The notes under the pieces were generated by a model that saw only the letters and a program-made list of their open reading frames with translations, was not told where the DNA came from and searched no databases. From Archangium primigenium (GTDB lineage Bacteria > Myxococcota > Myxococcia > Myxococcales > Myxococcaceae): a stretch of 64,000 nt of DNA. This document shows positions 35,195 to 50,210 of the stretch, piece after piece; within the stretch, counting starts at the first letter, position 1; each line of letters starts with the position of its first letter. Location: positions 1,736,001 to 1,800,000 of the forward strand of contig NZ_JADWYI010000001.1 of the NCBI RefSeq assembly GCF_016904885.1, written 5' to 3'. Both the position numbers and the translations under genes were made by a program.

Positions 35195-37063
35195 ATGCCC
35201 GTTCTTGGACTCTCGGTCGTGAGCACGCTCTGGCTCGCCGCGGTGGAGGCACCCGTCACCTCGGTCACGGTCTACGGCGACCAGGCCCGGGTGGTGCGCA
35301 CGGCGAAGGTGACCCTGTCGGGCACGCAGCGCGTGGAGCTGCCGAGGCTCTACGGCCAGGTGGAGCCCGACAGTCTCCGCGTGGAGGCACGGGGCGCCGA
35401 GGTGACGCGCGTGGAGGTGCGCCCGGTGACGTCCGAGCCGCTGCCCGGCAGCGAGGCCCGTCGGCTCATCACCGAGTTGGAGCGCCTGGATGACCGGCTC
35501 GCCCAGGTGCGCGCCGAGCACGCGGCCCACACCGCCGCGCTCGCCCACGTGTGGCGGCTCCAGCCCCAGGGCGCGCGGGGGTCCTCGGAGAGCGGCGAGG
35601 CCTCCGCGACCCGGTCGCCGCCTCGCCTGGATGCGGCGGGGTGGAAGGCGGCGGCGGACTTCGTGGCGGAGCGCGCCTCGCGCCTGCAGGCGAAGGTGCG
35701 CGAGCTCGCCCAGCGCGAGAGCGCGCTGGAGCGCGAGCAGACGGCCCTGGTCCAGGAGGCCCGACGTCTGGGCGGCGCGCCGCAGCAGCGGGGCCTGGAG
35801 GTGCTGCCCACGGTGACGGGGCAGGGCGCCGCCACCCTCACGCTCACCTATGTCACGCGGGGCGCGCGCTGGGTGCCCACCTACGAGCTGCGCCTGGAGC
35901 CGGAGAGCAGTCGGGTGGAGGTGGCGTTCGCCGGGCGCGTGAGCCAGGACTCGGGGGAGGACTGGGAGGACGCGGCGCTCACGCTGAGCACGGCGCTGCC
36001 CTCGCGCATCACCCGCGTGCCCGAGCCCACCACGTGGAAGATCGGCCAGCTCGAGCGCTTCATCCCCACGGCGCCGACCGTGCCGGACGCGTGGCGCGCG
36101 CCGCCCCCTCCGCCTCCGCCCTCGCCCCGGCGGCCCGACGAGGACGAGCGCCTGCGCGGCCGTCTGCTGGCGCTCTCGGCGGGCGGCGCTTCCCGTCCCC
36201 TGGCGCCCGAGGAGCGCCTGGTCGAGGAGAGCCTGGACGAGGAGGAAGTGGCGGCGGGCATGCCCATGCCGGCCCCCTCCGTGGAGGCGCGCAACTACGA
36301 AGCACTGGCCGAACTGGCGCCAGGGGCCAACAAGGGCTCTTTCAGGGGCGCGCCCCCTGACGTGGGCGCCACGGCCGTGGGGCTGTCGCCGCCCGCCGCG
36401 TGGCGTCCGCCCCCCGTGGCGCCGAACTCGCCCGCGGCGCTGGCCGGCGGGTATGCCCTGACGTTCCCGGCGCAGCGGCGCGAGACGGTGCGCAGCGGCG
36501 GGGGCGAGCGGCGCGTGCCGCTGCTCACCGAGAGCTGGCCGGTGCAGCTCCAGCGGGACGTGTACCCGGCGCTCACGCCCACGGCGTTCCTGGTGGCGCA
36601 GCTGCGCAGCCCCTCCAAGCAGGTGCTGCCGGGCGGCGAGGCGCAGCTGTTCGTGGGGGCGGATCCCGCGGGGCAGGCGAAGCTGTCGGTGGTGGCGCCC
36701 GGCGAGCCCTTCACCCTGCCCTTGGGCGTGGACCCGGCGGTGCGCCCGGTGCGCAACGTGCGCGTGGTGTCCAAGGAGAAGGGCTTCCTCGGCAAGAAGG
36801 ACGTCACCGACTACCTCGTGACGCTCGAGGTGGCCAACCCCTACCCGGTGCCGCTCGCCCTGGTGCTGCATGACCAGTGGCCCCTGTCGCGCAGCCAGGA
36901 CGTGGAGGTGGAGCTGGTGCGCACCGAGCCCTCCGCCGAGCAGGACAAGGACAAGGGCACCCTCGTGTGGCGCCTGACGGTGCCGCCCTCGGCGAAGACG
37001 AGCGTGTCCTTCCACTACACCGTGCGCCTCCCCAAGGGCTGGCGCCTGACGCAGTCGCCCTGA
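35195..37063 (+). CDS. DUF4139/DUF4140 mucoidy-inhibitor-like protein (copy 1)
   Basis: A 622-residue exported protein with an N-terminal hydrophobic segment. The DUF4140-like start (VTSVTVYGDQARVVRTAKVTLSGTQ) is followed by a coiled-coil of about 100 residues and then a large beta-rich DUF4139 domain (ARWVPTYELRLEPESSRVEVAFAGRVSQDSGEDWEDAALTLSTA). A Pro-rich insert splits the latter. Similar proteins are annotated as mucoidy inhibitor A; the biochemical role is unknown. It is followed 12 bases later by a paralogue. Confidence 0.88.
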   Translation: MPVLGLSVVSTLWLAAVEAPVTSVTVYGDQARVVRTAKVTLSGTQRVELPRLYGQVEPDSLRVEARGAEVTRVEVRPVTSEPLPGSEARRLITELERLDDRLAQVRAEHAAHTAALAHVWRLQPQGARGSSESGEASATRSPPRLDAAGWKAAADFVAERASRLQAKVRELAQRESALEREQTALVQEARRLGGAPQQRGLEVLPTVTGQGAATLTLTYVTRGARWVPTYELRLEPESSRVEVAFAGRVSQDSGEDWEDAALTLSTALPSRITRVPEPTTWKIGQLERFIPTAPTVPDAWRAPPPPPPPSPRRPDEDERLRGRLLALSAGGASRPLAPEERLVEESLDEEEVAAGMPMPAPSVEARNYEALAELAPGANKGSFRGAPPDVGATAVGLSPPAAWRPPPVAPNSPAALAGGYALTFPAQRRETVRSGGGERRVPLLTESWPVQLQRDVYPALTPTAFLVAQLRSPSKQVLPGGEAQLFVGADPAGQAKLSVVAPGEPFTLPLGVDPAVRPVRNVRVVSKEKGFLGKKDVTDYLVTLEVANPYPVPLALVLHDQWPLSRSQDVEVELVRTEPSAEQDKDKGTLVWRLTVPPSAKTSVSFHYTVRLPKGWRLTQSP

Positions 37064-37075
37064 AGGACGCCACGC

Positions 37076-38641
37076 ATGCACTCCCTGCCCTTGATGATGT
37101 TGGCGCTCGTGGCCCCCACGAAGATCTCCTCCGTGGTCGTCTACCCGGACCGGGCCCTCGTCACGCGTGTGGAGACCGTGGCTTGTGCCCCGGGCGCGCT
37201 CGCCGTGTTCGAGTCGGTGCCGCCCGCGGCGGACCCCACGAGCTTCCGCGCCCGCTCGGAGGAGGCCACCGTGGAGAGCCTGGTGGCCGAGGAGCGCTCG
37301 CGCGAGGCGGCCTTTGGCGCGCGCAGCGAGGCCGTGCGGGTGAAGCGCGAGGCGCTCGAGCGCGAGCTGGCCGAGTTGATGGACGCGCGCGCGCGGGCCA
37401 ATGCCCAGCTCCAGTTGAGCGAGAAGCTCTCGGACGTGGCCGTGGAGCGCGTGACGCGCGAGCTCACCGAGTCCCGTCCGGACGCCCGGGCCTGGACGAC
37501 GGCCCTCGACGCCGCGCTGGACCTGCGCCTGCGCGCCGTGGCGGACCTGTCCTCGCGCGAGGCCCGTGTGCGCGAGGTGCAGCGCGAGCTGAGCGCGCTG
37601 CGCGAGCAGGCGGCCTTCCTCGCGGCCTCGGCGGCGTGGAAGGAGCGGCGGGTGGAGGTGCGCATCGCGTGCACCGCCGAGGGCCGGGCGCGCGTGGAGC
37701 TGCAATACATGGTGGGCGGCGCGGGCTGGACACCGGCCTATGAGGCGCGGGCCGACGAAGCCCACGGCCACGTGGAGCTGAGCACCTTCGCCTCCGTGCG
37801 CCAGTCCACCGGCGAGGAGTGGAGTGGCGTGCGCCTGGCGCTGTCCACCGCGCGGCCCCGGGCCAATGCCACGCCGCCCGAGCTCCAGCCGCTGACGCTG
37901 AGCGCCTACGAGCAGGCCGCCCAGCGCAAGGTGCTGGTGCGCCGCGAGGAGCGCGTGGAGCATGCCCAGGCGGCGGGGGCCTCCGGGGCGCGCGGCGCGG
38001 ACGGGCTGACCGCCGTCTCCCAGGGCGTGTCCGTGCAGCTGCTCGTGCCCGAAGTGGCCCAGGTGCCCGGCGACGGGAGCGACGTGCGGCTGCGCGTGGC
38101 GCGCACGACGCTGCCCACCACCTTCGTCTGGCGCACCGTGCCCAAGCTGCGCCCGCTGGTGTTCCGCGTGGCCCGGCTCGTCAATGGCGCGCCCTTTCCC
38201 CTGCTGCCCGGCAAGGTGGACCTCTTCCGGGGCGCGGGCTTCATCGGGCAGGAGGCGCTGGAGCAGGTGCCCCAGGGCGCGCCCTTCCAGCTCACCTTCG
38301 GCCTGGAGGAGTCCCTGCGCGTGGAGCGTGTGGTGGTGCGCGAGGTCGCGCGGGACCAGGGCCTGTTCAACTCGCGGCGCCGCTTCCACTACGCCTACCG
38401 CTTCAACCTGGGCAACCACCTGCCGCGCGCCGAGGAGCTGGAGCTGGTGGAGCCCATCCCCGTCTCCGAGCTGGAGGACGTCACCGCCTCCCTGGGCGAG
38501 AAGACCAGCGGCGGCCACGAACTCAACGCGGTGGATGGCCTCATCACCTGGAAGGTGAAGCTCCAGCCGGCGGAGACGCGCGCCATCGACCTCGCCTTCC
38601 ACGTGGACGTGCCGTCCAGCTACGACATGGACGGCCTGTAG
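37076..38641 (+). CDS. DUF4139 mucoidy-inhibitor-like protein (copy 2)
   Basis: A 521-residue relative of the preceding protein: N-terminal TKISSVVVYPDRALVTRVETV, a central coiled-coil (residues about 75-185), and a beta-rich C-terminal domain with GWTPAYEARADEAHGHVELSTFASVRQSTGEEWSGVRLALSTA. It lacks the long Pro-rich insert of copy 1. It probably arose by tandem duplication and the two may form a hetero-oligomer. It ends 4 bases before the stop of the convergent AgmX-like gene. Confidence 0.88.
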   Translation: MHSLPLMMLALVAPTKISSVVVYPDRALVTRVETVACAPGALAVFESVPPAADPTSFRARSEEATVESLVAEERSREAAFGARSEAVRVKREALERELAELMDARARANAQLQLSEKLSDVAVERVTRELTESRPDARAWTTALDAALDLRLRAVADLSSREARVREVQRELSALREQAAFLAASAAWKERRVEVRIACTAEGRARVELQYMVGGAGWTPAYEARADEAHGHVELSTFASVRQSTGEEWSGVRLALSTARPRANATPPELQPLTLSAYEQAAQRKVLVRREERVEHAQAAGASGARGADGLTAVSQGVSVQLLVPEVAQVPGDGSDVRLRVARTTLPTTFVWRTVPKLRPLVFRVARLVNGAPFPLLPGKVDLFRGAGFIGQEALEQVPQGAPFQLTFGLEESLRVERVVVREVARDQGLFNSRRRFHYAYRFNLGNHLPRAEELELVEPIPVSELEDVTASLGEKTSGGHELNAVDGLITWKVKLQPAETRAIDLAFHVDVPSSYDMDGL

Positions 38642-38645
38642 GCGG

Positions 38646-39209
38646 TCAGCGGCCCAGCGCGAAGTCGACGAATACCTCCACGTCCGACGTCAGCCCCACG
38701 TCGGAGAACTCCCAGGCGAGCAGGCGCTGGCGCACGCAGTCCGACAGCTCGCGTGGCAGCCGCTGCGCCGAGGACAGCACCGCCGCGCGCGTGGCGCCCG
38801 TCTGCGCCACCTGGATGCGCGCGCCCACCGTGGGCGGCACGCCCGGGGGCAGGGGACAGGCCCTCAAGTCCGGTGCCCGCGCCTCCATGGCCCGGCGCAG
38901 CAGCGCGCGCTGGGAGGACAGCACGGGGGCGGGCGGGGGCGCGGGCTTGCGCGCCACGGGCTTCTTCTTCACCGGGGCCGGCCGGGCCACCACCACCGGC
39001 GCGGGCGGAGGCTCGGGCGGCGCGACGACGGCGACGGGCTCGGGCGGGGACGGCCACCACCAGAGCAGCAGGAGCAGCAGCAGCCCCGCGGCGAGCGCCC
39101 ACCGCCGCTTGCGCGAGGGCCGGGAGGACACGACGAGACGTCTCGGACGCCGCTGTCCGCGGACCGGTGGACCCGGTCCCGCCCGTCGTGCCACGGCCCG
39201 GGTCCTCAT
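38646..39209 (-). CDS. AgmX/PglI-type TonB-like protein, last gene of the MotAB/FliFG-like operon
   Basis: A 187-residue protein with a short cytoplasmic basic N-terminus, one membrane helix (ALAAGLLLLLLLWWW), a Pro/Ala/Lys-rich periplasmic linker and a C-terminal domain (GARIQVAQTGATRAAVLSSAQRLP...DCVRQRLLAWEF) of the kind at the end of AgmX/PglI proteins of gliding machines. Such proteins are thought to couple inner-membrane motors to the outer envelope. It overlaps the upstream gene as ATGA. The frame extends upstream to 39299, but 39209 is the coupled start. Confidence 0.75.
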   Translation of the reverse strand: MRTRAVARRAGPGPPVRGQRRPRRLVVSSRPSRKRRWALAAGLLLLLLLWWWPSPPEPVAVVAPPEPPPAPVVVARPAPVKKKPVARKPAPPPAPVLSSQRALLRRAMEARAPDLRACPLPPGVPPTVGARIQVAQTGATRAAVLSSAQRLPRELSDCVRQRLLAWEFSDVGLTSDVEVFVDFALGR

Positions 39210-40321
39210 CGCTGGGATTCGGGCAGGCTCAGCAGGCGCGCCCAACTCGTGGCGAAGCCTCCCGCGTAGCCGTCCCAGTCCTTGCCCACCGCCTCGCACA
39301 GGTCCCGCCGCGTGGCGAGGCCCGACTGGTGGCGGTTGAGGGCCTCGGCGAAGGGATCGTAGTACGCGATGGACGACGGGCTCGCCGCATCGAGTCCCTT
39401 GCGCGGGAAGCCCGAGAGGGCCGCGCAGCGCTCACGCATCTGCGCGTAGGTCTCGTTCTCCGGCGTGGAGATGAAGAGGAAGCGCGTCTGCGAGCGCGGC
39501 AGGTTCCACGCACCGCTGGCGGTGTTGAGCCAGCGCGTGGCCTCGTGGCCGCCACCGAACCAGCTCGCCGTCTCCGCGCTGCCCGCGCCGCAGTCGGACG
39601 CGCCGTAGCGCACCGGGCGGGCGCCATGGTCGAGCGTGATGACGAGCAGGGCGCTCGCCGGCTGGGTGAAGGGCCAGCCCTGGCTGGGGGTGCTGCCGTC
39701 GGCGGGTTGAACCAGGGCCTGGCTCAACCGGCCGCCAAGCTGCCCCAGGGCCTGCGTGCTGCACACCGCGGGGATGGTGGCGCCGTTGGCGTTGGCGGCC
39801 TTCTCCAAGGCGAGCTGAATCTCGGGGCTGGACAGCTCCTTGCCCGGCGCGGCCCAGTACAGCCGGGGCTCGTAGAGCGAGCCGATGGCCGTCATGCGCA
39901 CGTCGAAGCCCTTGGCCGCGAGCTGCTGGGTCATGCGCTGGACAAGAGAGGCGTACGTGTCCGCCATGTTGGCCGTGCCCCGATCGACGCGCACGAGCCA
40001 GAGCACGTTCGTGCCGCGATCTCCGTTCTGGCCACTGCCCGGGAAGGTCGAGGACGGAGGTGGACCCGCGTCCGGCATCCCGCCGTCGTTGCCGCCACCA
40101 CCGCCCCCTCCTCCTCCATCGCCACCGCCGCCGTTCCAGCCGCCATCCCAGGAGAGGCCGCCATCGGGCAGCGGAATGGGAATGCCGCCGCCGCCGCCAT
40201 CCATCGAGGGCGTGGGCGTCGAGGCATCATCGCCGCCTCCGTCCTTCACCATGTCGGGCGGCTCGATGATGCAACCCGTGACGACCGTACTCGCGACGAT
40301 GATCCAGCTCAGAGCGCGCAC
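39206..40321 (-). CDS. Gly-rich lipoprotein with vWA-like domain, operon member
   Basis: A 371-residue lipoprotein with a GTG start and lipobox VVTGCI. A disordered linker very rich in Gly and Asp (with runs of up to nine Gly) covers residues about 25-95. The remaining domain begins TNVLWLVRVDRGTANMADTYASLVQRM and looks like a von Willebrand A-type or caspase-like alpha/beta fold, resembling surface lipoproteins of myxobacteria. It starts 11 bases after the FliF/FliG-like gene. A possible role is a peptidoglycan or outer-membrane anchor of the complex. Confidence 0.7.
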   Translation of the reverse strand: MRALSWIIVASTVVTGCIIEPPDMVKDGGGDDASTPTPSMDGGGGGIPIPLPDGGLSWDGGWNGGGGDGGGGGGGGGNDGGMPDAGPPPSSTFPGSGQNGDRGTNVLWLVRVDRGTANMADTYASLVQRMTQQLAAKGFDVRMTAIGSLYEPRLYWAAPGKELSSPEIQLALEKAANANGATIPAVCSTQALGQLGGRLSQALVQPADGSTPSQGWPFTQPASALLVITLDHGARPVRYGASDCGAGSAETASWFGGGHEATRWLNTASGAWNLPRSQTRFLFISTPENETYAQMRERCAALSGFPRKGLDAASPSSIAYYDPFAEALNRHQSGLATRRDLCEAVGKDWDGYAGGFATSWARLLSLPESQR

Positions 40322-40332
40322 GCGGCTCCCCC

Positions 40333-42045
40333 TCAGTTGGTACGCCCGGCGCGCGTACCGTTTGGACTCAAGCTCAATCCTCGGCGGAGCATCTCATCCT
40401 TCACGCAGGTAAGCAGCTCCCTTCGCGCGCCAGTGAACTCCTCTGGACGTCCACCACCCCGCATTCCCAGTTCTTCCCGGAGCTCGCGCTGGAGGGACGT
40501 GGGGCACGCGGCCAACAGTTGCTCGCGCAAGGAGCCCTCGGCGCCGTTCAAGTAGTGAACGATTTGAGCGGACGGCAGCCGCAGCATCGCCGCGCCCAGC
40601 ACCTCCACGGGGGTGCCCAGCAGCGCCGACTCCGTCAGCAGGGACGAGGCCAGACGCTCCGAGCCCTCCTGCCGCAGCCGCTCGAGGAGCCGGTCCTGAT
40701 CCGCCATGGACAGGGTATCGAGCACCTCGCCCAGCACGCGCTCGAGCTGGGACTGGCCGCCGGTGGTCTCGGCCAGTTGGGTGCGCAGCTCGTCGGCCAC
40801 CGCCTGGGCGTAGCGGATGCTCACCTCGGGCTGACGCGCCAGGCCGAGCGCCAGCTCGCGGCGCTGCGCGGACGTGAACGTCTGGATGGCCACCGCGCGC
40901 AGGCCAGCCGGGGCGAAGCGCAGCGCCACCTCGCGCGAGCCCGAGGACAGCGCCTGGCACGCGGCGGCGAAGCGCTCGGGCCGCACGGCCTCGAGGAAGG
41001 CGAAGGCCTGCTCCACGGAGCTGTCCGCCTGGGCGAGCCGCGCGGCGATGGCCCGGCCCTCCAGGTCGTACAGCGCCGCGGCGCGCGCGCCCGCGTCCAC
41101 GGCGGGCACCCGGCCCAGCTCGGCGGCCAGGCCCGTCAGGGACGCGGTGAGGGCGGGGTCTCCGCGCAGGTCCTCCAGGAGGAACTCGCCCATCTCCCGG
41201 GTCCACAGGGCCACCTGCCGGGACTCTCCCCGGGCCAGGGCCTCGCGCACCACGCCGTTGCGCACCGAGCGCTCCTCGCGCAGGGTCCGCTCCAGGCGCC
41301 GCGCCCGCACGGCCGGGTAGTCCGGCGCGGGGGTGGGGGGCAGGGGCGCGGGCTCCAGGGCGGGCAGGGGCTCGGGGGCGTACTCCAGGCCCGGCGGAGG
41401 CGAGGCCGCGCGGCGCGTGGCCACCACCAGCAGCACGCCCAGCACCAGCACCGTCAGCGCGAGCAGCGCCGCCACCGCGAGCAGCGGCGCGGCCTCCAGC
41501 AGCCGCTCCTCGGCGCGCTCGCGCACGGACGGCACGGGCCTGGCCTCGGACTCGGGTGAGCCCGGGAGCGGCGGCGTGGCGGTGGGGGGGGACGGCTTGG
41601 GCTCGCGCGGCTGGGCCTCCAGGTGCGGGGCGTTGCGCGGCGGGAAGGCCACCGTCTCCACCTCCACGCCGGGCTGCGGCCCCACCGTCTTGAGCCGCTG
41701 CGCCACCAGGTCCTTGAGGCGGGTGCGGAAGGGCCCGGGCAACTGGCTGTCCACCAGCACGCGCGCGGACACCGAGCGCACGGTGGGCAGGGCCGCGCCG
41801 CCCGAGAGTGTCTCGAAGCCCGGGGGCGCGCCGGCGAGGGCCTCGTCCTCCACCCGGGCCTCCACGGCCACGAGCACGCACTGCTCGGGACAGAGCGTGC
41901 GCAACAGGTCGGAGACCTCGGCGCGCGCGCGCTCCTCGGCTTCGGCGCGCAGACGGCCCTGGGGCGTGGTGGCCGCGGCGCGCGCGGCGCCCGCTCCCAG
42001 CAGGGTGCAGAGAAGGAGGAGGAGATGTCGTGACTGGCGATTCAT
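40333..42045 (-). CDS. FliF-C/FliG chimera: rotor-like protein of a non-flagellar MotAB system
   Basis: A 570-residue protein. A signal peptide (1-23) leads a periplasmic domain (about 30-136) like the last extracellular domain of FliF (VRSVSARVLVDSQLPGPFRTRLKDLVAQRLKTVG). A membrane helix at about 185-209 is followed by a Pro-rich stretch, then by VVREALARGESRQVALWTREMGEF, like the FliF C-terminal peptide that binds FliG. Residues about 290-556 are FliG-like, ending in a FliG_C-type helix bundle (QIVHYLNGAEGSLREQLLAA...LREELGMRGGGRPEEF). At the torque-helix positions Glu524-Glu525 stand where FliG has Asp288-Asp289, and Arg533 where it has Arg297; Ser517 replaces Arg281. The EHPQ motif of FliG is missing. 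It follows motB by 3 bases. Confidence 0.75.
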   Translation of the reverse strand: MNRQSRHLLLLLCTLLGAGAARAAATTPQGRLRAEAEERARAEVSDLLRTLCPEQCVLVAVEARVEDEALAGAPPGFETLSGGAALPTVRSVSARVLVDSQLPGPFRTRLKDLVAQRLKTVGPQPGVEVETVAFPPRNAPHLEAQPREPKPSPPTATPPLPGSPESEARPVPSVRERAEERLLEAAPLLAVAALLALTVLVLGVLLVVATRRAASPPPGLEYAPEPLPALEPAPLPPTPAPDYPAVRARRLERTLREERSVRNGVVREALARGESRQVALWTREMGEFLLEDLRGDPALTASLTGLAAELGRVPAVDAGARAAALYDLEGRAIAARLAQADSSVEQAFAFLEAVRPERFAAACQALSSGSREVALRFAPAGLRAVAIQTFTSAQRRELALGLARQPEVSIRYAQAVADELRTQLAETTGGQSQLERVLGEVLDTLSMADQDRLLERLRQEGSERLASSLLTESALLGTPVEVLGAAMLRLPSAQIVHYLNGAEGSLREQLLAACPTSLQRELREELGMRGGGRPEEFTGARRELLTCVKDEMLRRGLSLSPNGTRAGRTN

Positions 42046-42048
42046 GGA

Positions 42049-42678
42049 CTATTCCACCCGGATGACGACCCGGCGGTTGGCGGCGCGCTGTTCCTCGGGA
42101 GGGCCCTGGACGTCCACGCGGCGGGTATCGGCGAAGCCGCGCACGGACATCCGCTCGCGGCCCACGCCGCTCTGCTCCAGAGCGGCGCGCACGTTGATGG
42201 CGCGCTGGGAGGACAGCTCCCAGTTGGAGGCGAAACGGGAAGTGCGGATGGGCACGTCATCGGTGTAGCCCTCGATGACGAGCCCCCGGCGCGGCAGCGT
42301 CTGCAGCATGCGCGCGATGGGGGTGATGGCCTGGGCGCCCTCGGCGCGGAGGTCCGCCGAGCCGGAGTCGAACAGGAGCGCGTCCTTGAACTCGATGACG
42401 AGCCCGTCCTGCTCCTGGCGCGTGAGCACCTTCTTCTCCAGCCCCTCCTGGGTGATGAAGGTGTCCACCTTCTCCTTGAGCTCCTCGAGCGGCGTGGCCT
42501 CGCCGGTGAGGGAGGCGGCCATGCGCTCGAACTGGGCCGTCTTGGGCGGGGACACGGCGAGCAGCAGCACGAAGAAGCCGATGAGCAGCGTGAGCAGGTC
42601 CGCGTAGCTGATGAGCCACAGCTCGTCGTCCTGACCGCCGCCGTGCAGGAGCGCCTGCAGGTCCGGATCCTCCCTCAC
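42049..42678 (-). CDS. MotB-like stator subunit
   Basis: A 209-residue stator protein. GTG start overlaps the motA stop (GTGA). One membrane helix (WLISYADLLTLLIGFFVLLLA) holds the proton-binding Asp27, the counterpart of MotB Asp32. A plug/linker segment and a C-terminal OmpA-like peptidoglycan-binding domain follow (LLFDSGSADLRAEG...IEGYTDDVPI...NRRVVIRVE). It is shorter than E. coli MotB, mostly in the linker. The OmpA domain separates it from ExbD/AglS-type gliding motor proteins, which lack one. Confidence 0.9.
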   Translation of the reverse strand: MREDPDLQALLHGGGQDDELWLISYADLLTLLIGFFVLLLAVSPPKTAQFERMAASLTGEATPLEELKEKVDTFITQEGLEKKVLTRQEQDGLVIEFKDALLFDSGSADLRAEGAQAITPIARMLQTLPRRGLVIEGYTDDVPIRTSRFASNWELSSQRAINVRAALEQSGVGRERMSVRGFADTRRVDVQGPPEEQRAANRRVVIRVE

Positions 42679-43475
42679 GGCTCGGCCCCGGTGCCGGTGG
42701 CCACCTCGGGCACGGCGCTGGTGGCGCCAGCGGGCGCGGTGGCGGACAGCTCGAAGAGCTTGCGCACGTCGGCGAGCGGCTTGTCCTCGCGCACCAGCAC
42801 GAGCGCGCGGGTGATGAGCCGGGCCTCCTCCACCGCCACCGTCATGTGCGAGTGGATGACGCGGCCGAGCGGCTGGTAGACGGCGTTGGCGAGGATGAGG
42901 CCGTAGAGCGTACAGAGCAGCGCGAGCGCCATGGACGGGCCGAGCTGGTCGAAGCGCGACAGGTCCTTGAGCAGCGCGATGAGGCCGAGCACCGTGCCGA
43001 CCAGGCCCGTGGCGGGCGCCACGCGCGAGAGCGTGCCCAGCACGTCCTCGGCGCGCTTCATGCCGCTCACCATGCAGAAGAGCGAGGTGCTGGCGGTGCT
43101 CTCGATGTCCTCGCTGGAGTACTGGCGCACCACGAGCGGCCCGAGCTGGCGCAGCACGTCATGGCGCGCCGCGCTCGCGATCTCCAGGGCGCGGGCGGGG
43201 CGGCGCTGGCGCACCTCGGCGGCGAACTGGGTGAGCGACTCGTAGAGCTCCGCGCGCGAGCGGGCCGCGGAGAAGCGCAGCGCCCGGGCCACCGCCCGCG
43301 CCGCCCCCGCCAGCTCGCTGAACTTGTAGGAGGCCACCGTCATGCACAGCGGCGCGCAGCCGAGCAGCACGAGCGAGGGCACGTGGATGACGCCGCTGAA
43401 GCCACTGGTGTGGCCCTGGGTGAGCGTGTAGGCCAGGGTCAGGGCGAGCCCCAGGAGTCCGACGATGAAGTGCAT
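42675..43475 (-). CDS. MotA-like stator subunit
   Basis: A 266-residue membrane protein with two N-terminal helices (1-22 and about 30-51), a large cytoplasmic loop with many basic residues ending in RPARALE, and two C-terminal helices. The channel prolines are visible in VAPATGLVGTVLGLIALL and GPSMALALLCTLYGLILAN. The loop charges are the surface that touches FliG in flagellar motors. It starts 5 bases after the upstream stop and overlaps motB. Confidence 0.9.
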   Translation of the reverse strand: MHFIVGLLGLALTLAYTLTQGHTSGFSGVIHVPSLVLLGCAPLCMTVASYKFSELAGAARAVARALRFSAARSRAELYESLTQFAAEVRQRRPARALEIASAARHDVLRQLGPLVVRQYSSEDIESTASTSLFCMVSGMKRAEDVLGTLSRVAPATGLVGTVLGLIALLKDLSRFDQLGPSMALALLCTLYGLILANAVYQPLGRVIHSHMTVAVEEARLITRALVLVREDKPLADVRKLFELSATAPAGATSAVPEVATGTGAEP

Positions 43476-43479
43476 GGGG

Positions 43480-44133
43480 CTATTCCTCTCCTGCGGAGGC
43501 GGTGGCGCGGAGGGCCTCGGCCACGCCCGCGTCCTCGGGGTTGATGCTCAGGGCCTTCTCCCAGGCCTGGCGCGCGAGCTTCTGCTGGCCGAGCTTCATG
43601 TACAGCGAGCCCTTCATGGCCAGCAGCCGCGCGTCCTGGGGGTACTCCTTCTCCAGCGACACCAGCTCGATGAGGGCCAGCTCGTAGCGGCGCGCGGCGA
43701 ACATCTCCTTCACCCGCGCCACGCCGCCCAGGTAGCTGCGCGTGCGCGCCGCCTTGTTCGCGTCGATGAGGGGCGCCGCGTCCTTCTCGCCGGCCTTGGC
43801 CTGGGCGCCGACCACGGCCTCCGCCAGCATCTCCTCGTCCGCGGACGTCAGCATCTCCACGGGGCCGCCGGCCACGAGCGGCAGGCGCACCTCGTAGCCG
43901 CCGGTGGCCTCGGGCAGCTCCATCTCCCAGACGCGCCCGTTCTCCGCCATGCGCAGGATGTACTTCTGCGGCGGCGGGAGCGGCGGCTTGGCCTTGCTCG
44001 CCCCGGGCGTGCTGCTGGGCGCGGCCGTGCGCCGCATCTCGTCGGGCACCACCAGCACCTTGGACGTGGCCGTGGTCTCGCACGCGGGCAGCGCCGCGAC
44101 GAGCAACAATCCCCAGAAGCGCGCGCTCACCAT
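43480..44133 (-). CDS. TPR lipoprotein, operon member
   Basis: A 217-residue lipoprotein (lipobox LPACE) with a beta-rich first half (KYILRMAENGRVWEMELPEATGGYEVRLPLVAGG) and a C-terminal pair of TPR-like helices (RYELALIELVSLEKEYPQDARLLAMKGSLYMKLGQQKLARQAWEKALSINPED). TPRs mediate assembly of envelope complexes, and lipoproteins of this sort often stabilise secretins or barrels. The ATG at 44133 overlaps the upstream gene by 7 bases. Confidence 0.75.
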   Translation of the reverse strand: MVSARFWGLLLVAALPACETTATSKVLVVPDEMRRTAAPSSTPGASKAKPPLPPPQKYILRMAENGRVWEMELPEATGGYEVRLPLVAGGPVEMLTSADEEMLAEAVVGAQAKAGEKDAAPLIDANKAARTRSYLGGVARVKEMFAARRYELALIELVSLEKEYPQDARLLAMKGSLYMKLGQQKLARQAWEKALSINPEDAGVAEALRATASAGEE

Positions 44134-45281
44134 GTGAATCCCATTCCCAGCTGCGGGGTCAGCCCGCCGATCGTGTAGGTGCTGTCCGTGCTGCTCGCGA
44201 AGGGCACCAGGATGCCGAGGCTCGCCTGGAGGGAGATCCGGTGCGCCATCACGCACTCGGCCTGGGCGTTGAACAGGGGCGAGTTGCCCTGCACGCCCGT
44301 GAGGAGCATGCCCACCGAGCCGCCGCCAAAGCAGTTGATGCTGTAGACGTTCTCCCGGTTGAGCCGCGAGAGCAGCGTGGCCGAGAGGATGCCGCCCACC
44401 AGGCGCGAGGGGTTGATGATGCCCGCCACCGTGCCGCCCAGCCGCCAGGTGCGCTCCTCGCCGAAGGCCTCGGTGAAGCGGTAGGCCGTGTAGGGCGCCC
44501 AGACGGAGCCCTCGGGGTGGCCCTCGGTGGGGATGATCATCGCGCCCAGGTGCAGCGCGTGGTTGAAGTGGGGCCGCGCGTCGATGCGGTCCTGCAAATC
44601 CTTGAGCCGCGCCTCCCGGCTCTGCACCTTGTCCGCCGAGCGGTAGAGCAGCGCCGTGTGCGGGTGCACCCGGTAGCCCTCGGCGAAGAAGACGGAGGCG
44701 TCCTCGGCGCGCACCAGCTCCACGTCGAAGGCGAGCGCGTTGGGCGCGGTGTGCAGGGTGAGGCTCGCGTTGAGCACCACCTGGGTGTTGTACTTCTTCA
44801 TCAACTGCAGCAGGTCCTCGCGGCGCGAGATGCCCCGGCGCACCACCCACGCCCCGTCCTCCACCTGGGCGTGCGTGGCGTAGCACTCGTAGCAGCGCAC
44901 CACGCGCACGTTGGCCGCGCGGTAGATGGCCGCGATGAGCCGCGCCTCGATGATGCTCGCGAACTCGGGGTTCATGTTGTCCGAGACGCGCACGCGCTCG
45001 AGCAGGATGGGTGAGACGCGGTTGGCGCCCAGCCGCGCGATGTCCGCGGCGAACTCGTCGAGGATCTCCTCCAGCACGTCGTTGGCGTCCACCTCGGCGC
45101 CCGGGCGCACCAGCCGGCCCTCGCGCGTCTCCAGGCGCGTGGGGGACCGGGGCCTGGCGTAGATGCTGGCGCCCGCGGGGACTTCATTGTCCGCGGGCGG
45201 GCTCGCCGCGGGAGGGGATTGGGCCCCCGCGGCCAGGGCCCAGAAGAGCCCGGCGAGGAGGACGACGGCTTCACGGCGCAT
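44127..45281 (-). CDS. FlgO/CsgG-like domain fused to an outer-membrane beta-barrel
   Basis: A 384-residue exported protein with signal peptide. Residues about 65-230 contain an alpha/beta domain (IIEARLIAAIYRAANVRVVRC, NTQVVLNASLTLHTAPNALAFDVELVRAEDASVFFAEG) reminiscent of FlgO and CsgG-like outer-membrane proteins. The C-terminal 140 residues alternate strands (LGGTVAGIINPSRLVGGILSATLLSR ... QLGMGFTW) and end in an aromatic residue, as outer-membrane barrels do. CYECY near residue 120 could form a disulfide. Assignment is by pattern and needs a profile search. The gene overlaps its neighbours on both sides. Confidence 0.6.
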   Translation of the reverse strand: MRREAVVLLAGLFWALAAGAQSPPAASPPADNEVPAGASIYARPRSPTRLETREGRLVRPGAEVDANDVLEEILDEFAADIARLGANRVSPILLERVRVSDNMNPEFASIIEARLIAAIYRAANVRVVRCYECYATHAQVEDGAWVVRRGISRREDLLQLMKKYNTQVVLNASLTLHTAPNALAFDVELVRAEDASVFFAEGYRVHPHTALLYRSADKVQSREARLKDLQDRIDARPHFNHALHLGAMIIPTEGHPEGSVWAPYTAYRFTEAFGEERTWRLGGTVAGIINPSRLVGGILSATLLSRLNRENVYSINCFGGGSVGMLLTGVQGNSPLFNAQAECVMAHRISLQASLGILVPFASSTDSTYTIGGLTPQLGMGFTW

Positions 45282-46977
45282 GCGGAACCTCCGTCTTCGC
45301 GGGCGCGGAGACAGGGGGAGGAGAAGAAGGGCCGCGCGGGAACCACGCGCGCGAGGTGCCATCCGCCAGCGGCAGGGCGAGCAGCGAGTAGGGCTCCGGC
45401 CACGCCACGGAGAAGTCGGGCGGCGGCAGCATGCCCGGGGGCGCGCCCACGGCCACCTGGCCCACCGCCACGAAGGCCCGCGCGCGCTTGCCCTTGGCCG
45501 CCGCCTGGGGCGCGCGATCCTCGAGCGCCGCGAACAGGGGCGGGAAGACCTTGTCATGGCGCGAGTGCACACCCTGGCGCATCGCCTCCAACTGGGTGGC
45601 GAGCACCGGGCGCCAGCGCGCCTCGGTCAGGTCCGCGCTCGTGGTCACCACGGACTGCGCGAGCGCCAGGACGATGCGATCCACCTCGTCCAGATCCTTC
45701 GTCGCGGCGCGGTCCTGCCGGCGCAGGGTGAGCAGTCGCTCGATGGCGCGCGTGAAGCCCGCCGCGTCGCCCGCGGCGAGCGCCACCTCGGCGCGCAGCG
45801 TGTGGCCTCGTGCCCGGCCCGGGGTCCCCGGCTCCTTGAGCAGCCGCTCGGCCACGTCCAGCGCCAGCCGGGTGTTGCCCTGCTCCAGCGCGAGTCCGCC
45901 CAGCGTGGCCAGCCGCCGACCGAGCCCCGCCGCGGGCCCCAGGTCCCGCAGCAGCGCGAGCGACTCGGGCCCCAGGCCGCCGCGCGTCAGCGAGGCCAGG
46001 GCGAGGCCGCGCAGGGCCTCGGCGATGGGGTCCTGCGCGCCCGCGAGCGCGGGGAAGACGGCGGCCCAGCCCTGGGCCAGGGTCTCGCGGTGGCCGAGCG
46101 CCTGGTGGGCCAGGGCCCGTCGGTAGAAGATCTCGCGCCGGGGGGCCACCTCCGCCGGGGGCGTGTCGGCGCCGGGCCAGGCGGCCTCGGACGCCGTGAG
46201 CGCGAGCACGTCCTCCCAGCGGCCCTCCTGGGCCAGCCACGCCGCCGCCTGGACGACGAGCGGCAGGCGGTACGCGGCGAGCGCGGGCTCGCGGGCGAGG
46301 CGCTCGAAGTGCGAGGGCGGCAGCAGGCCGAGCGCCAGCCGCAGCATGTCATCCAAGGGCCGGTCCTCGGGCGCCAGGGCGGCGGGGTCGAACGCGCGCG
46401 CCACCTCCCGGGCCGCGTCCGCCTGGCCGAGCACGAGCAGCCGCGCCGCCTGGTGGTGACTCAGCCGCGCCCACGCCTCGTCCTCCAGGGTCTCCCGGAG
46501 AGCCGTCCGGAGCTGGGGCGAGAGCAGGCTCAACTCGTCGGCGGCGGGCACGGGCTGGCCGCAGGACGAGGGCTTGAGCCGGAACTCCAGCCGCTCGTGG
46601 TTCCAGCGCTCGTCCTCCAGGGGCCAGCGCAGGGCCTGATCCTGGGGCAGGGGGGCGGCGCGCCGGAAGAAGTCCGGGGCCAGCACGTCCCGCCACAGCG
46701 TGGGCGCGCTGGTCGCGGCCGCCCCGAGCCGTCCCCTACGGGCCTGCTCCAGGCGCAGCAGCGTCCGGGGGCCGAACAGCGCCTCGGTGGCGGGCGTGGG
46801 TGCCAGCGGCTCGCAGTTGAGGAAGTGCACCAGGTCGACGTAGAGCCGACGCCGCTCTCCCTGCTCGGCGTCCGCGAGGGGCTCGGCGAGCTGTACCACC
46901 AGGGCGTTCAGGTCCCGTGCCCAGAAGGGGCCGGCGTAGGGGTTGGCGGACAGGAGCCCCGCCAGCAGCGCGCCCAT
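45271..46977 (-). CDS. Helical-repeat (TPR-like) protein, GltC-like by position
   Basis: A 568-residue protein with little or no signal peptide (SANPYAGPFWARDLNALVVQL start after a short hydrophobic stretch). It consists mostly of Ala/Leu-rich helix pairs typical of degenerate TPR/SEL1 repeats (ERLAREPALAAYRLPLVVQAAAWLAQEGRWEDVLAL and similar). The start overlaps the upstream stop as TGATG. Its place after a lipoprotein and a small barrel recalls the gltK-gltB-gltA-gltC group of gliding myxobacteria. Similarity there is positional and compositional only. Confidence 0.65.
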   Translation of the reverse strand: MGALLAGLLSANPYAGPFWARDLNALVVQLAEPLADAEQGERRRLYVDLVHFLNCEPLAPTPATEALFGPRTLLRLEQARRGRLGAAATSAPTLWRDVLAPDFFRRAAPLPQDQALRWPLEDERWNHERLEFRLKPSSCGQPVPAADELSLLSPQLRTALRETLEDEAWARLSHHQAARLLVLGQADAAREVARAFDPAALAPEDRPLDDMLRLALGLLPPSHFERLAREPALAAYRLPLVVQAAAWLAQEGRWEDVLALTASEAAWPGADTPPAEVAPRREIFYRRALAHQALGHRETLAQGWAAVFPALAGAQDPIAEALRGLALASLTRGGLGPESLALLRDLGPAAGLGRRLATLGGLALEQGNTRLALDVAERLLKEPGTPGRARGHTLRAEVALAAGDAAGFTRAIERLLTLRRQDRAATKDLDEVDRIVLALAQSVVTTSADLTEARWRPVLATQLEAMRQGVHSRHDKVFPPLFAALEDRAPQAAAKGKRARAFVAVGQVAVGAPPGMLPPPDFSVAWPEPYSLLALPLADGTSRAWFPRGPSSPPPVSAPAKTEVPHAP

Positions 46978-47582
46978 CACAGCACCACCCCGAGCGTCAG
47001 CGTGGGCAGTACCCCGAGCGACAGCAGGCCCCGGCTGCGCGACTCGAAGCTGAGCACGAGCGGCACGTCGAGCTGGGCATGGAAGCGCGGGCCCATGCGC
47101 ATGAGTACGCCGGGGCCTCCCATGGGCGAGGGGCTCACGCCCCGATCGGTGAAGACGAAGCCCATGTGCCCGGCCAGCTGGAGGTCGAAGTGCACGAGCG
47201 TGCCCTCGCCGACGAGCGCCTTGCCGTAGCCGAGCGTCTGCCGCCACCCGGCGGCGAGCAGGGCCACGGGACGGTGGGCGTCGGGCACCAGGCCCGTGCG
47301 TTCGAACACCTCGGTGCCCGCCGCGCCCAGGCTCGACACGAAGAGGCCGAGCTTGAGCTCCACGCCTCCGGACTCCACCGGGTACCAGCTGGCCGAGGCC
47401 ATCAGGCCCGGGTTGCTGTAGTAGTCGCCGCGGGACAGGTAGCCCAGGCCCGCCGTGGTGAAGACGTGGTGGCGCTTGAGCAGCAGGCGCCGCTCTACTC
47501 GTGCCGGCTCGCCCTCGGTGCCGGGAATCGAGGCCGTGGGGTCCGCGGCCAGCAGGGCGGTGAGCACACCGGCGAACATCAT
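46977..47582 (-). CDS. Small outer-membrane beta-barrel, operon member
   Basis: A 201-residue protein with a short signal (MMFAGVLTALLAADP). Alternating strands follow (HHVFTTAGLGYLSRGDYYSNPGL, ELKLGLFVSSLGAAG, HFDLQLAGHMGFVFTDRG) to the end LLSLGVLPTLTLGVVL. Size and strand number fit an 8-strand barrel, as for GltA/GltB-type proteins. The start overlaps the stop of the upstream lipoprotein gene as ATGA. Confidence 0.7.
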   Translation of the reverse strand: MMFAGVLTALLAADPTASIPGTEGEPARVERRLLLKRHHVFTTAGLGYLSRGDYYSNPGLMASASWYPVESGGVELKLGLFVSSLGAAGTEVFERTGLVPDAHRPVALLAAGWRQTLGYGKALVGEGTLVHFDLQLAGHMGFVFTDRGVSPSPMGGPGVLMRMGPRFHAQLDVPLVLSFESRSRGLLSLGVLPTLTLGVVL

Positions 47583-48574
47583 GAGCCGCTCTCCGTCAGC
47601 ATGCACCCGGGCGTCTGGTTCCACACCCGCGGCTCCCCGTCCGGAGGCATGGGGTAGAGCCGCTCGCAATTCGCGCGGCACACCTCGAGCGTGTAGCGGA
47701 GGGTCTGGCTGGGGGGCTTCTGGGTCCGGGACACCGGGGCCGAGGGGACGGTGAGGGTCAGGCGGATGCGCGGGGGCTTCGTCGGCTCCACCTTCACCGC
47801 CTGCTTGCCGTACACGAAGTCGATGCCCGAGAGGACGGAGGGGGCCGCGCAGCCCTTGAACTCCCGCACCGACGCCAGCTCCTGGGACGTGAAGAGGGGA
47901 TAGCCGGCGTCGGGGGGCTGCTCGAGCTGGACGAGCGGCAACTGGTTCCGGGCGGCCTCCTCCAGGGCGGCGGTCAGGCGGGCATCGGTGCTGAAGGTCC
48001 AGAGGGCGGCGAAGTCGGCGCCCAGGCCCTGTTGGGCCTCCGGGGTCGCCAGGCTCCACAGCAGCGCGGGCCCCGTGCTCCAGGAGCGCATCGCGCCGAG
48101 CTGGGACTGGAGGATCGGGGGCAGCGGCAGGTTGACGTTGTTGAAGTAGAACATCACCGGCTTGACGCGGGCCGTGCCGTAGCGCTGCACCGCGGTGTTC
48201 ACCTCCGCGCCATGGGCATTGAGGTTCAACTGGCGGTTCGTGCTCTGCTGGCAGTTGGGCGACAGGTCCTGGGGGGACAGCTCCATGCCCGTGCGTCCCG
48301 AGGGCAGCAGCGCGGCGCGCAGGGTGTTGCGCAGGTGGTTGCGCACCCGGGTGCATTCGGTGGCGTCCGGGATGTTGAGATCGAAGATCAGCCCATAGAC
48401 GAGCGGCGCGTCCTGGGCGCCCAGCACCTGCTCGCGCTTGAGCTGCTCGAGCTCGGGCGGGTGGGGGTCCACGAAGTAGGACTCACACGCCGTCAGCCCC
48501 AAGAACCCGAGCGCCAGCACGCCGAGCACCCGACCGGGCGACCGGCGACATTCCTGCCACTCCGTGCGCGTCAC
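47579..48574 (-). CDS. Large lipoprotein, first gene of the MotAB/FliFG-like operon
   Basis: A 331-residue lipoprotein. The GTG at 48574 has GGGGGAG upstream; the signal peptide ends in lipobox LGLTACE. The mature protein begins SYFVDPHPPELEQLKREQVLG and is mixed alpha/beta, with several Cys (ECTRV, PNCQQ, KGCAAP, VCRANCERLYP, PGCM) that could form disulfides. No family was recognised; position suggests a GltK-like outer-membrane lipoprotein. The operon promoter should lie in the 208-base gap shared with the divergent htrA gene. Confidence 0.7.
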   Translation of the reverse strand: MTRTEWQECRRSPGRVLGVLALGFLGLTACESYFVDPHPPELEQLKREQVLGAQDAPLVYGLIFDLNIPDATECTRVRNHLRNTLRAALLPSGRTGMELSPQDLSPNCQQSTNRQLNLNAHGAEVNTAVQRYGTARVKPVMFYFNNVNLPLPPILQSQLGAMRSWSTGPALLWSLATPEAQQGLGADFAALWTFSTDARLTAALEEAARNQLPLVQLEQPPDAGYPLFTSQELASVREFKGCAAPSVLSGIDFVYGKQAVKVEPTKPPRIRLTLTVPSAPVSRTQKPPSQTLRYTLEVCRANCERLYPMPPDGEPRVWNQTPGCMLTESGS

Positions 48575-48782
48575 GTGAACGACCACTCCCCCGCTTTGCC
48601 TGCCGGCCTGGGCGGCATCTTTATAAGCGCAACCGGCGCACCCCTGTAAAGGCCCCCCTCGCCTCCGAGGGAAGGGGTCATGGTGGGGAGCCGAGCAGGC
48701 ATCCTCCCGCCCGCACCGACAGGGCCCGTGGTTGTCGCGCTCCTCGGGGTTCCCAATCTTGTTCCCGGAGGAGATCACCTTC

Positions 48783-50210
48783 ATGAAGCTCGCCCGCCTG
48801 TTGGTCTTGTCGCGTGTCGCCCTGTTGCCCGCCTTGATGTGGTCCGCACCGGGCGTGTGTGAGCCCCGACCTCCGGAGAAGTCGGAGGCCCTGTCCATCG
48901 CGAACCTGGTCGAGGCCGTGAAGGACTCCGTCGTCAACGTGGACGTCCAGGCCCGCGCGCCGTCGGCGGAAGGCTCCGGGGACTTCTTCGAGAAGTTCTT
49001 CGGCATGCCCAACGGCTCGGGGGGCTCGGGAGGGCTGGGGGACTCCGAGACGCGCCAGCGCATCCGGCAGGGCGAGGGGTCGGGTTTCATCATCGACGCC
49101 AACGGCCTCATCCTCACCAACAACCACGTGGTGGAGGACGCCATCGCCATCCGCATCCGCCTCAATGACGGGCGCCAGTTCGACGCCCGGGTGCTGGGGA
49201 GGGATCCGCTCACGGACCTGGCGCTGCTCAAGCTCCAGGGCGACGTGAAGAACCTGCCCGTGGCGCGGCTGGGAGACTCGGACGCCGTGCGTGTGGGCGA
49301 CACGGTGGTGGCCATCGGCAACCCGTTCGGTCTCACCTCCAGTGTCAGCGCGGGCATCCTCTCGGCCCGGGCCCGGGACATCCAGTCCGGCCCCTACGAC
49401 AACTTCCTGCAGACGGATGCCGCCATCAACCCGGGCAACTCGGGCGGCCCGCTCTTCAACGATCGGGGCGAGGTCATCGGCATCAACACCGCCATCGTGG
49501 GCGGCGGCTCGGGCATCGGCTTCGCGGTGCCCTCGAGCATGGCCCAGAAGCTCCTGCCCCAACTGCAGAAGGGGCAGATCCACCGCGGTTGGCTCGGGGT
49601 GGCGGTGCAGGATCTGACGCCGGAGCTGGCCCAGGCGCTGCGGGTGCCGATGACCCAGGGCGCCATCGTCACCGACGTGCAGCCGGGCACGCCGTCCGCG
49701 GACGCGGGCCTGCGGCGCGACGACATCCTCACGGCCATCGACGGCAAGCCCATCGAGTCCTCGCGGGCGCTCACCCGCGAGGTGGGCTTCCGCCAGCCCC
49801 AGGAGGCCCTGACCCTCACCGTCTACCGCGACGGCAAGTCCCGCCAGCTCAAGGCGAAGCTCGGCGAGCGGCCGGATCTGGAGGGCAACGCGTCCGCGCC
49901 GCCGCCCGAGGCGCGCGCGGCGGACTCCGGCCGGGAGCTGGGCCTGAGCCTGCGCGAGGCGGACCCGCGCCTCACCCCGGGCGTCAAGGGCGGGGCGCTG
50001 CTGGTGGACGTGGCGCCGGGCTCGCCCGCGGAGCGCGCGGGGCTCCAGCCGGGCATGACCATCGTCGAGGCGGGGGGCAAGCCGGTGCGCGGAGCGCAGG
50101 CGCTCACCCAACTGCTCAAGGGCCAGAAGCCGGGCGCCGTGGTGCTCTTGCGCGTGCAGGTGGGCAAGAGCCGCCTCTTGCGCGCGCTACCCATCCCCGC
50201 GGGGAGCTGA
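48783..50210 (+). CDS. HtrA/DegP-type periplasmic serine protease
   Basis: A 475-residue envelope protease/chaperone. The ATG at 48783 has GGAGGAG upstream and starts a signal peptide (LARLLVLSRVALLPALMWSAPGVC). The catalytic triad is His115 (TNNHVV), Asp145 (LTDLALLK) and Ser220 (PGNSGGPL). Two PDZ domains follow (RGWLGVAVQDLTPE...; LGLSLREADPRL...). It degrades or refolds damaged envelope proteins. It is divergent from the MotAB/FliFG-like operon, and its 3' end overlaps the convergent YchJ-like gene by 24 bases. Confidence 0.95.
   Translation: MKLARLLVLSRVALLPALMWSAPGVCEPRPPEKSEALSIANLVEAVKDSVVNVDVQARAPSAEGSGDFFEKFFGMPNGSGGSGGLGDSETRQRIRQGEGSGFIIDANGLILTNNHVVEDAIAIRIRLNDGRQFDARVLGRDPLTDLALLKLQGDVKNLPVARLGDSDAVRVGDTVVAIGNPFGLTSSVSAGILSARARDIQSGPYDNFLQTDAAINPGNSGGPLFNDRGEVIGINTAIVGGGSGIGFAVPSSMAQKLLPQLQKGQIHRGWLGVAVQDLTPELAQALRVPMTQGAIVTDVQPGTPSADAGLRRDDILTAIDGKPIESSRALTREVGFRQPQEALTLTVYRDGKSRQLKAKLGERPDLEGNASAPPPEARAADSGRELGLSLREADPRLTPGVKGGALLVDVAPGSPAERAGLQPGMTIVEAGGKPVRGAQALTQLLKGQKPGAVVLLRVQVGKSRLLRALPIPAGS

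Follow-up and report, generated by a model that had tools for sequence, protein, structure and literature searches.

In a survey of stators, flagellar-type MotAB pairs are treated as one flagellar clade (PMC12505986), and a 2025 survey of flagellar genes reported that 11% of non-motile species have rotor proteins but no filament, which raised the possibility of an alternative function and left it open (PMC12199754). Here we analyze a stretch of 64,000 nucleotides from the non-swimming soil bacterium Archangium primigenium (contig NZ_JADWYI010000001.1, positions 1,736,001 to 1,800,000; the window), which carries a ten-gene operon representing a concrete and conserved case of flagellar-type stator and rotor parts outside a flagellum, with dedicated partners. 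The ten genes, g1 to g10, include a MotAB pair and a FliF/FliG-like protein (g3, the chimera), and we consider it probable that together they specify one envelope-spanning, ion-driven rotor-stator machine around a flagellar-type motor core. The locus suggests that nature uses a rotary motor for a job other than swimming.

The core of the system is flagellar-motor-like, but the whole is not a flagellum. With the flagellar motor core it shares a stator with a plug, an OmpA domain and the ion-binding Asp, FliG-like domains, a predicted RBM3-like fold and a MotA of flagellar type. In contrast to the flagellum, the FliF and FliG parts are here fused in one chain that bears a signal peptide; this chimera, which we call type I, is without RBM1, RBM2 and the beta-collar. 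The locus has no FliM/FliN and, as a first-pass annotation of the window had observed, no export gate, rod, hook or filament gene, and its seven envelope partners are foreign to flagella. The FliF–FliG fusion motors of Salmonella and E. coli laboratory mutants belong to complete flagella and arose by construction in the laboratory or by deletion. There, likewise, the C-terminal end of FliF is joined to FliG, whereas the present fusion is natural, conserved and flagellum-free. The term FliF–FliG fusion occurs in PMC10128058. The AglRQS/Glt gliding machinery of Myxococcus likewise couples outer-membrane barrels and lipoproteins to a proton-driven motor, and one operon protein weakly resembles its AgmX (GltJ)-type tail. 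We know of no FliG- or FliF-like rotor in that machinery. Its AglRQS motor belongs to the TolQR class (PMC12505986, PMC13104615), whereas the operon stator, with MotB_plug and OmpA domains, goes with flagellar stators. GldLM, which drives the type IX secretion system (T9SS) of Bacteroidota, is an ion-driven motor of the 5:2 type with lipoprotein and outer-membrane partners (PMC13104615), but, unlike the operon stator, it has been described as lacking homology to MotAB; an NCBIfam scan of the operon returned, for Gld/Por families, only weak and generic matches to GldA and PorW (E 0.016 and 0.11). No description of such a flagellum-free motor system was found in a search of the Creative Commons-licensed literature of PubMed Central.

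The operon comprises ten consecutive minus-strand open reading frames (ORFs), which we read from the sequence as lying head to tail from 48574 down to 38646, with overlaps of 1-11 bases or gaps of 3-11 bases between neighbors; the tight packing (11 bases or less) described in the first-pass annotation is thus correct. The order of transcription is g10, g9, g8, g7, g6, g5 (MotA), g4 (MotB), g3 (chimera), g2 and g1, and g10, g4 and g2 start with GTG. A promoter scan found no sigma-70 site, such a scan being uninformative in a GC-rich myxobacterium.

The chimera consists of a signal peptide, an RBM3-like domain (residues ~28-132), a transmembrane helix (~174-211) and FliG-like domains (~237-559). 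Residues 454-550 match Pfam FliG_C (E 1.7e-5, 25.5 bits), above the curated cut-off of 23.3, so that the profile search proposed for this 570-residue protein did return FliG. An AlphaFold2 model, built from five aligned orthologues, predicts an alpha-beta-beta-alpha-beta domain (28-132), one long transmembrane helix (174-211) and, in the cytoplasm, an entirely helical part (243-554). When Foldseek was run with this model, 13/13 matches in the PDB at E <= 0.001 were FliG. According to VIA-align, residues 237-559 superpose on full-length FliG, the last 89 residues on T. maritima FliG_C (1.9 A, Z 13.3) and on MotAB-bound FliG (8ucs; 2.1 A), and residues 23-135 on FliF RBM3 rings (Z 10-10.8), the beta-collar being absent. 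Profile-profile comparison by HHalign matched the cytoplasmic part to residues 26-310 of FliG at 95.1% (E 3e-8), and MotA, used as a control, gave <1%. In an ungapped alignment the torque-helix residues D288/D289 of E. coli FliG correspond to E524/E525 of g3, and this acidic pair is invariant in alignments A1 and A2. These results show that the cytoplasmic part of g3 is homologous to FliG, and the predicted structure shows a periplasmic part whose RBM fold is closest to that of FliF RBM3.

The Pfam matches of g5 and g4 (Table 1) agree with their earlier identification as MotA and MotB; in NCBIfam, g5 matches PomA/MotP best and g4 ranks with MotD/MotB. Equivalents of MotA Pro173 and Pro222 are kept in g5, and g4 keeps those of the ion-binding Asp (D32) and of the peptidoglycan-binding residues D197 and R217. 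The same MotB Asp and peptidoglycan residues recur in each of the module types I, II and III described below. Since a plug and an OmpA-like domain distinguish the flagellar-type (FIT) stator (PMC12505986) and g4 has both, the operon stator is of this type. Maximum-likelihood trees place both proteins with the flagellar stators and a long way from TolQR/ExbBD. Type I MotA forms one group (91/95), type I MotB is not one clade, three distant rows being unplaced, and the root branches are too long to place either protein before or inside the flagellar clade. Our data show a MotAB pair with an ion-binding Asp, a plug and a peptidoglycan-anchoring domain. A further class of MotA/MotB pairs, on a long branch, was seen at L143:8354-9818 and L144:8993-10523.

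All ten genes occur in identical order in five other genomes of family f1 (six f1 loci with the window) and in five intact loci of a second Myxococcales family, f2, with which three truncated contigs agree. The genes are therefore together in relatives, not scattered, and such synteny in independent genomes excludes chance. In other Myxococcota classes the core g7-g6-MotA-MotB-chimera-g2 is kept, and g1, g10 and g9 (and g8 where found; it was not detected in locus L053) come after the core instead of before it, which makes this the same gene set circularly permuted. In genome G164, truncated contigs cover only g7 to g1. An all-against-all comparison of the flanks gave no further conserved gene, only antisense or generic ORFs. 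The type I chimera is present in 18/195 genomes of the phylum; a wider chimera profile added only cross-matches to types II and III and one marginal match, and a scan of genome contigs beyond Myxococcota with strict patterns returned only myxobacterial or deltaproteobacterial records, which does not in itself show absence elsewhere. Purifying selection is strongest on the chimera, MotA and MotB (dN/dS 0.20-0.38) and weakest on the lipoproteins g2 and g10 (0.45-0.67), as expected if these two face a changing partner. Taken together, these results show a fixed set of outer-membrane and lipoprotein partners that has long been kept under purifying selection.

The A. primigenium genome (9.49 Mb, 98.6% complete) contains no true FliG, the chimera being its sole FliG_C match over the cut-off, and g4 is its sole MotB_plug match. 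No Flg_bbr_C (rod/hook) protein was found in it at E <= 1. With no FliG, rod/hook protein or second MotB_plug, we rejected the idea that the locus is a displaced part of a flagellum, in keeping with the lack of a complete flagellar gene set elsewhere in the genome. Matches to FlhA-type proteins and FliMN_C cluster at 2.80 Mb and 7.82-7.84 Mb, in two type III secretion system (T3SS) loci; FliMN_C is confined to these, and FliM/FliN are not at the ten-gene locus. Loci of this kind were described for Myxococcales by Abby and Rocha 2012 (PMC3459982). The Myxo-type non-flagellar T3SS is likewise a flagellum-derived module, but it is stated to be without FliG and MotAB (PMC3459982), whereas of such parts the ten-gene locus holds these alone, export genes being absent. 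A tblastn search of three stretches around the T3SS loci found none of the ten operon genes, and the operon was rejected as a T3SS part. Between SctJ-like and SctL-like T3SS genes, at L015:1222-2874 (C1, ~7.84 Mb), lies a gene for a 550-residue protein with weak FliG similarity (21.5 bits, below the cut-off), despite the stated lack of FliG in the Myxo T3SS.

A FliG_C search across the phylum found proteins of 500-560 residues encoded next to TPR, MotA and a pair of MotB genes, which we term type II (L085-L092). These proteins share the layout of the chimera; their FliG homology is clear (FliG_C 4e-21; HHalign 99.5%, E 1e-22), and they reach FliF RBM3 at 95.1% in HHalign, with YscJ_FliF_C (8e-4) just below cut-off. 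By bridging to both FliG and FliF, they make the strongest case for descent of the type I protein from FliF/FliG-like parts. The type II carrier G137 also has a separate true FliG, and such carriers may also possess a true flagellum. MotB_plug searches led to type III modules (L133-L138, L141), in which a FlgO/g7-like gene, TPR, MotA and MotB precede a gene for a ~640-residue distant chimera relative; HHalign aligns 299 columns of it with the type I protein (96.9%, E 1.6e-10), and there are direct profile cross-matches. Type III is widespread in Archangium-type genomes without type I, and Archangium lansinium carries both. We see an even chance that types I-III together make up a whole class of rotary machines that Myxococcota run independently of any flagellum, every type combining MotAB and a one-chain FliF/FliG-like rotor with an outer-membrane station of its own. 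Such a class would be either an exapted flagellar motor core or a lineage that diverged when the flagellum had yet to gain its export apparatus.

We infer rotation, ring formation and the final job of the machine. A peptidoglycan-anchored MotA5:MotB2 would turn on proton flow and push a ring of chimera subunits at its FliG_C face. This ring could work without FliM/FliN and without a separate MS ring, because RBM, transmembrane helix and FliG lie in one chain. Torque would pass from the RBM ring through the lipoprotein, TPR and TonB-like parts g6, g8, g2 and g1 and end at an outer-membrane station of g7, g9 and g10, where something at the cell surface would be moved or energised; g7 and the lipoproteins would form the outer-membrane end of the machine. 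Our guess for the output is transport of a surface adhesin or polymer first, envelope maintenance second and export third.

Several observations weigh against this proposal. The operon encodes no recognisable rod or shaft protein to carry torque out of the ring. MotA E98 is not strictly kept, and FliG K264 and R281 are replaced by N and S in the g3 of the window (ungapped alignment, read by eye). The quality of the g3 model is moderate (pLDDT 66, pTM 0.32, five sequences), and its RBM-like fold also superposes on MamB/MamM domains (Z 9-10), so that the periplasmic fold alone is not decisive. The earlier description of g3 as a FliF/FliG chimera thus holds for FliG by Pfam, profile and fold, and for FliF in type I by fold alone, not by sequence, profiles comparing it with FliF at only 0.3%. 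The first-pass interpretation of an envelope machine derived from the flagellar motor core and not serving flagellar rotation is supported; the uses it put forward (surface transport, spore coat work or cell-wall remodelling) are guesses. Three outcomes had been set beforehand as counting against it (no FliF/FliG similarity, scattered genes, or a complete flagellar gene set elsewhere); two were decided in full and did not occur, and the third did not occur for type I.

An unlikely explanation, which still survives best among the rivals, is a Tol-Pal-like or Ton-like envelope machine, in which MotAB and the chimera are a force transducer that orders the outer membrane, the peptidoglycan and the lipoproteins, with no large ring in continuous rotation. 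The peptidoglycan-binding MotB, the TonB-like g1, the outer-membrane barrels and the TPR lipoprotein fit it (Tol-Pal also has a TPR protein), but a FliG-type torque face would be superfluous for Tol or Ton, the stator proteins fall far from TolQR/ExbBD, and the patchy distribution is ill suited to a housekeeping role. It is rather improbable that the motor powers the export of a polymer or protein, with the g7/g9 barrels as the passage and GldLM-driven type IX secretion as the parallel: although the fast evolution of g2 and g10 would fit variable cargo or exposure and outer-membrane barrels are present, 8-strand barrels have no usable pore, and the NCBIfam scan of the operon proteins found no ATPase, no secretin and no significant match to a known T9SS family. 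The lack of a recognisable shaft and the partly altered charged torque face could also mean that, in a real MotAB-chimera complex, the FliG-like ring serves not as a rotor but as a clutch, an anchor or a sensor, such as one of surface contact; with the acidic pair invariant and the stator residues kept, we judge this quite improbable. MotAB and FliG/FliF are flagellar families and flagellated Myxococcota exist, yet a displaced or decaying flagellum remnant is very improbable: purifying selection keeps the same gene set in different classes, its outer-membrane partners are its own and absent from flagella, and the genomes G108 and G112 have it alongside a distinct, true FliG. Zorya-type phage defence with a MotAB-like motor, least plausible of all, was rejected: g4 matches ZorB models (8.8e-24), as expected for any MotB, but g5 matches no ZorA model, ZorC/D/E are missing and eight envelope proteins, outer-membrane barrels included, are present.

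The remaining parts are the envelope partners (Table 1). Lipobox-like signal ends identify g10, g6 and g2 as the three lipoproteins listed in the first-pass annotation; g10 has no Pfam or NCBIfam family match. Of the two proteins called TPR-like, only g6 is supported as such; g8, probably a periplasmic helical-repeat protein, has no match in either database. For g7, labeled FlgO-like or a barrel, the predicted model gives good support to an outer-membrane barrel of 8 strands (NspA, Z 16.9, root mean square deviation 2.4 over 137), and the N-terminal part is LpoB-like (Foldseek E 5e-4); FlgO kinship is at most putative. The small barrel g9 weakly matches the myxobacterial outer-membrane barrel family TIGR04565 of NCBIfam (25.3 bits, cut-off 60). 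In g1 a cytoplasmic N end is followed by one transmembrane helix, a Pro-rich linker and an AgmX/PglI-type C-terminal domain with a weak match to NF033768 (NCBIfam, 17.9 bits, cut-off 40).

Table 1. Operon genes (window positions) and modules of types II and III (locus positions).
Feature	Position	Strand	Description
g10	47579..48574	-	lipoprotein, 331 residues, lipobox LTAC; first gene, fast evolving
g9	46977..47582	-	small outer-membrane beta-barrel, 201 residues; kept in all intact loci
g8	45271..46977	-	568 residues; kept in f1 and f2 loci
g7	44127..45281	-	periplasmic LpoB-like domain and predicted 8-strand outer-membrane beta-barrel, residues 234-384
g6	43480..44133	-	TPR lipoprotein, 217 residues, lipobox LPAC; TPR_8 5e-6 (Pfam)
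g5 MotA	42675..43475	-	flagellar-type stator subunit; MotA_ExbB 1e-17 (Pfam)
g4 MotB	42049..42678	-	MotB_plug 1e-12 and OmpA 5e-18 (Pfam)
g3 chimera	40333..42045	-	570 residues, FliF/FliG-like, one chain
g2	39206..40321	-	lipoprotein, 371 residues, lipobox VTGC; fast evolving
g1	38646..39209	-	TonB-like layout, read from sequence
type II module	L085:7993-12318; also L086, L088-L092		FliF/FliG-like protein, TPR, MotA, two MotB genes in row
type III module (example)	L134:5177-13515		g7-like, TPR, MotA, MotB (209 residues), ~640-residue protein, large lipoprotein

On the plus strand, two paralogue-like genes (window 35195-38641; 622 and 521 residues, judged DUF4139-like by eye) run convergently towards the operon end and are not kept at the loci of relatives. 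At the other end, a plus-strand gene for a trypsin-like/PDZ (HtrA-type) protease (48732-50210) is divergent to the operon; it has no match beside the operon in other loci of the same genus, where uppP is found instead.

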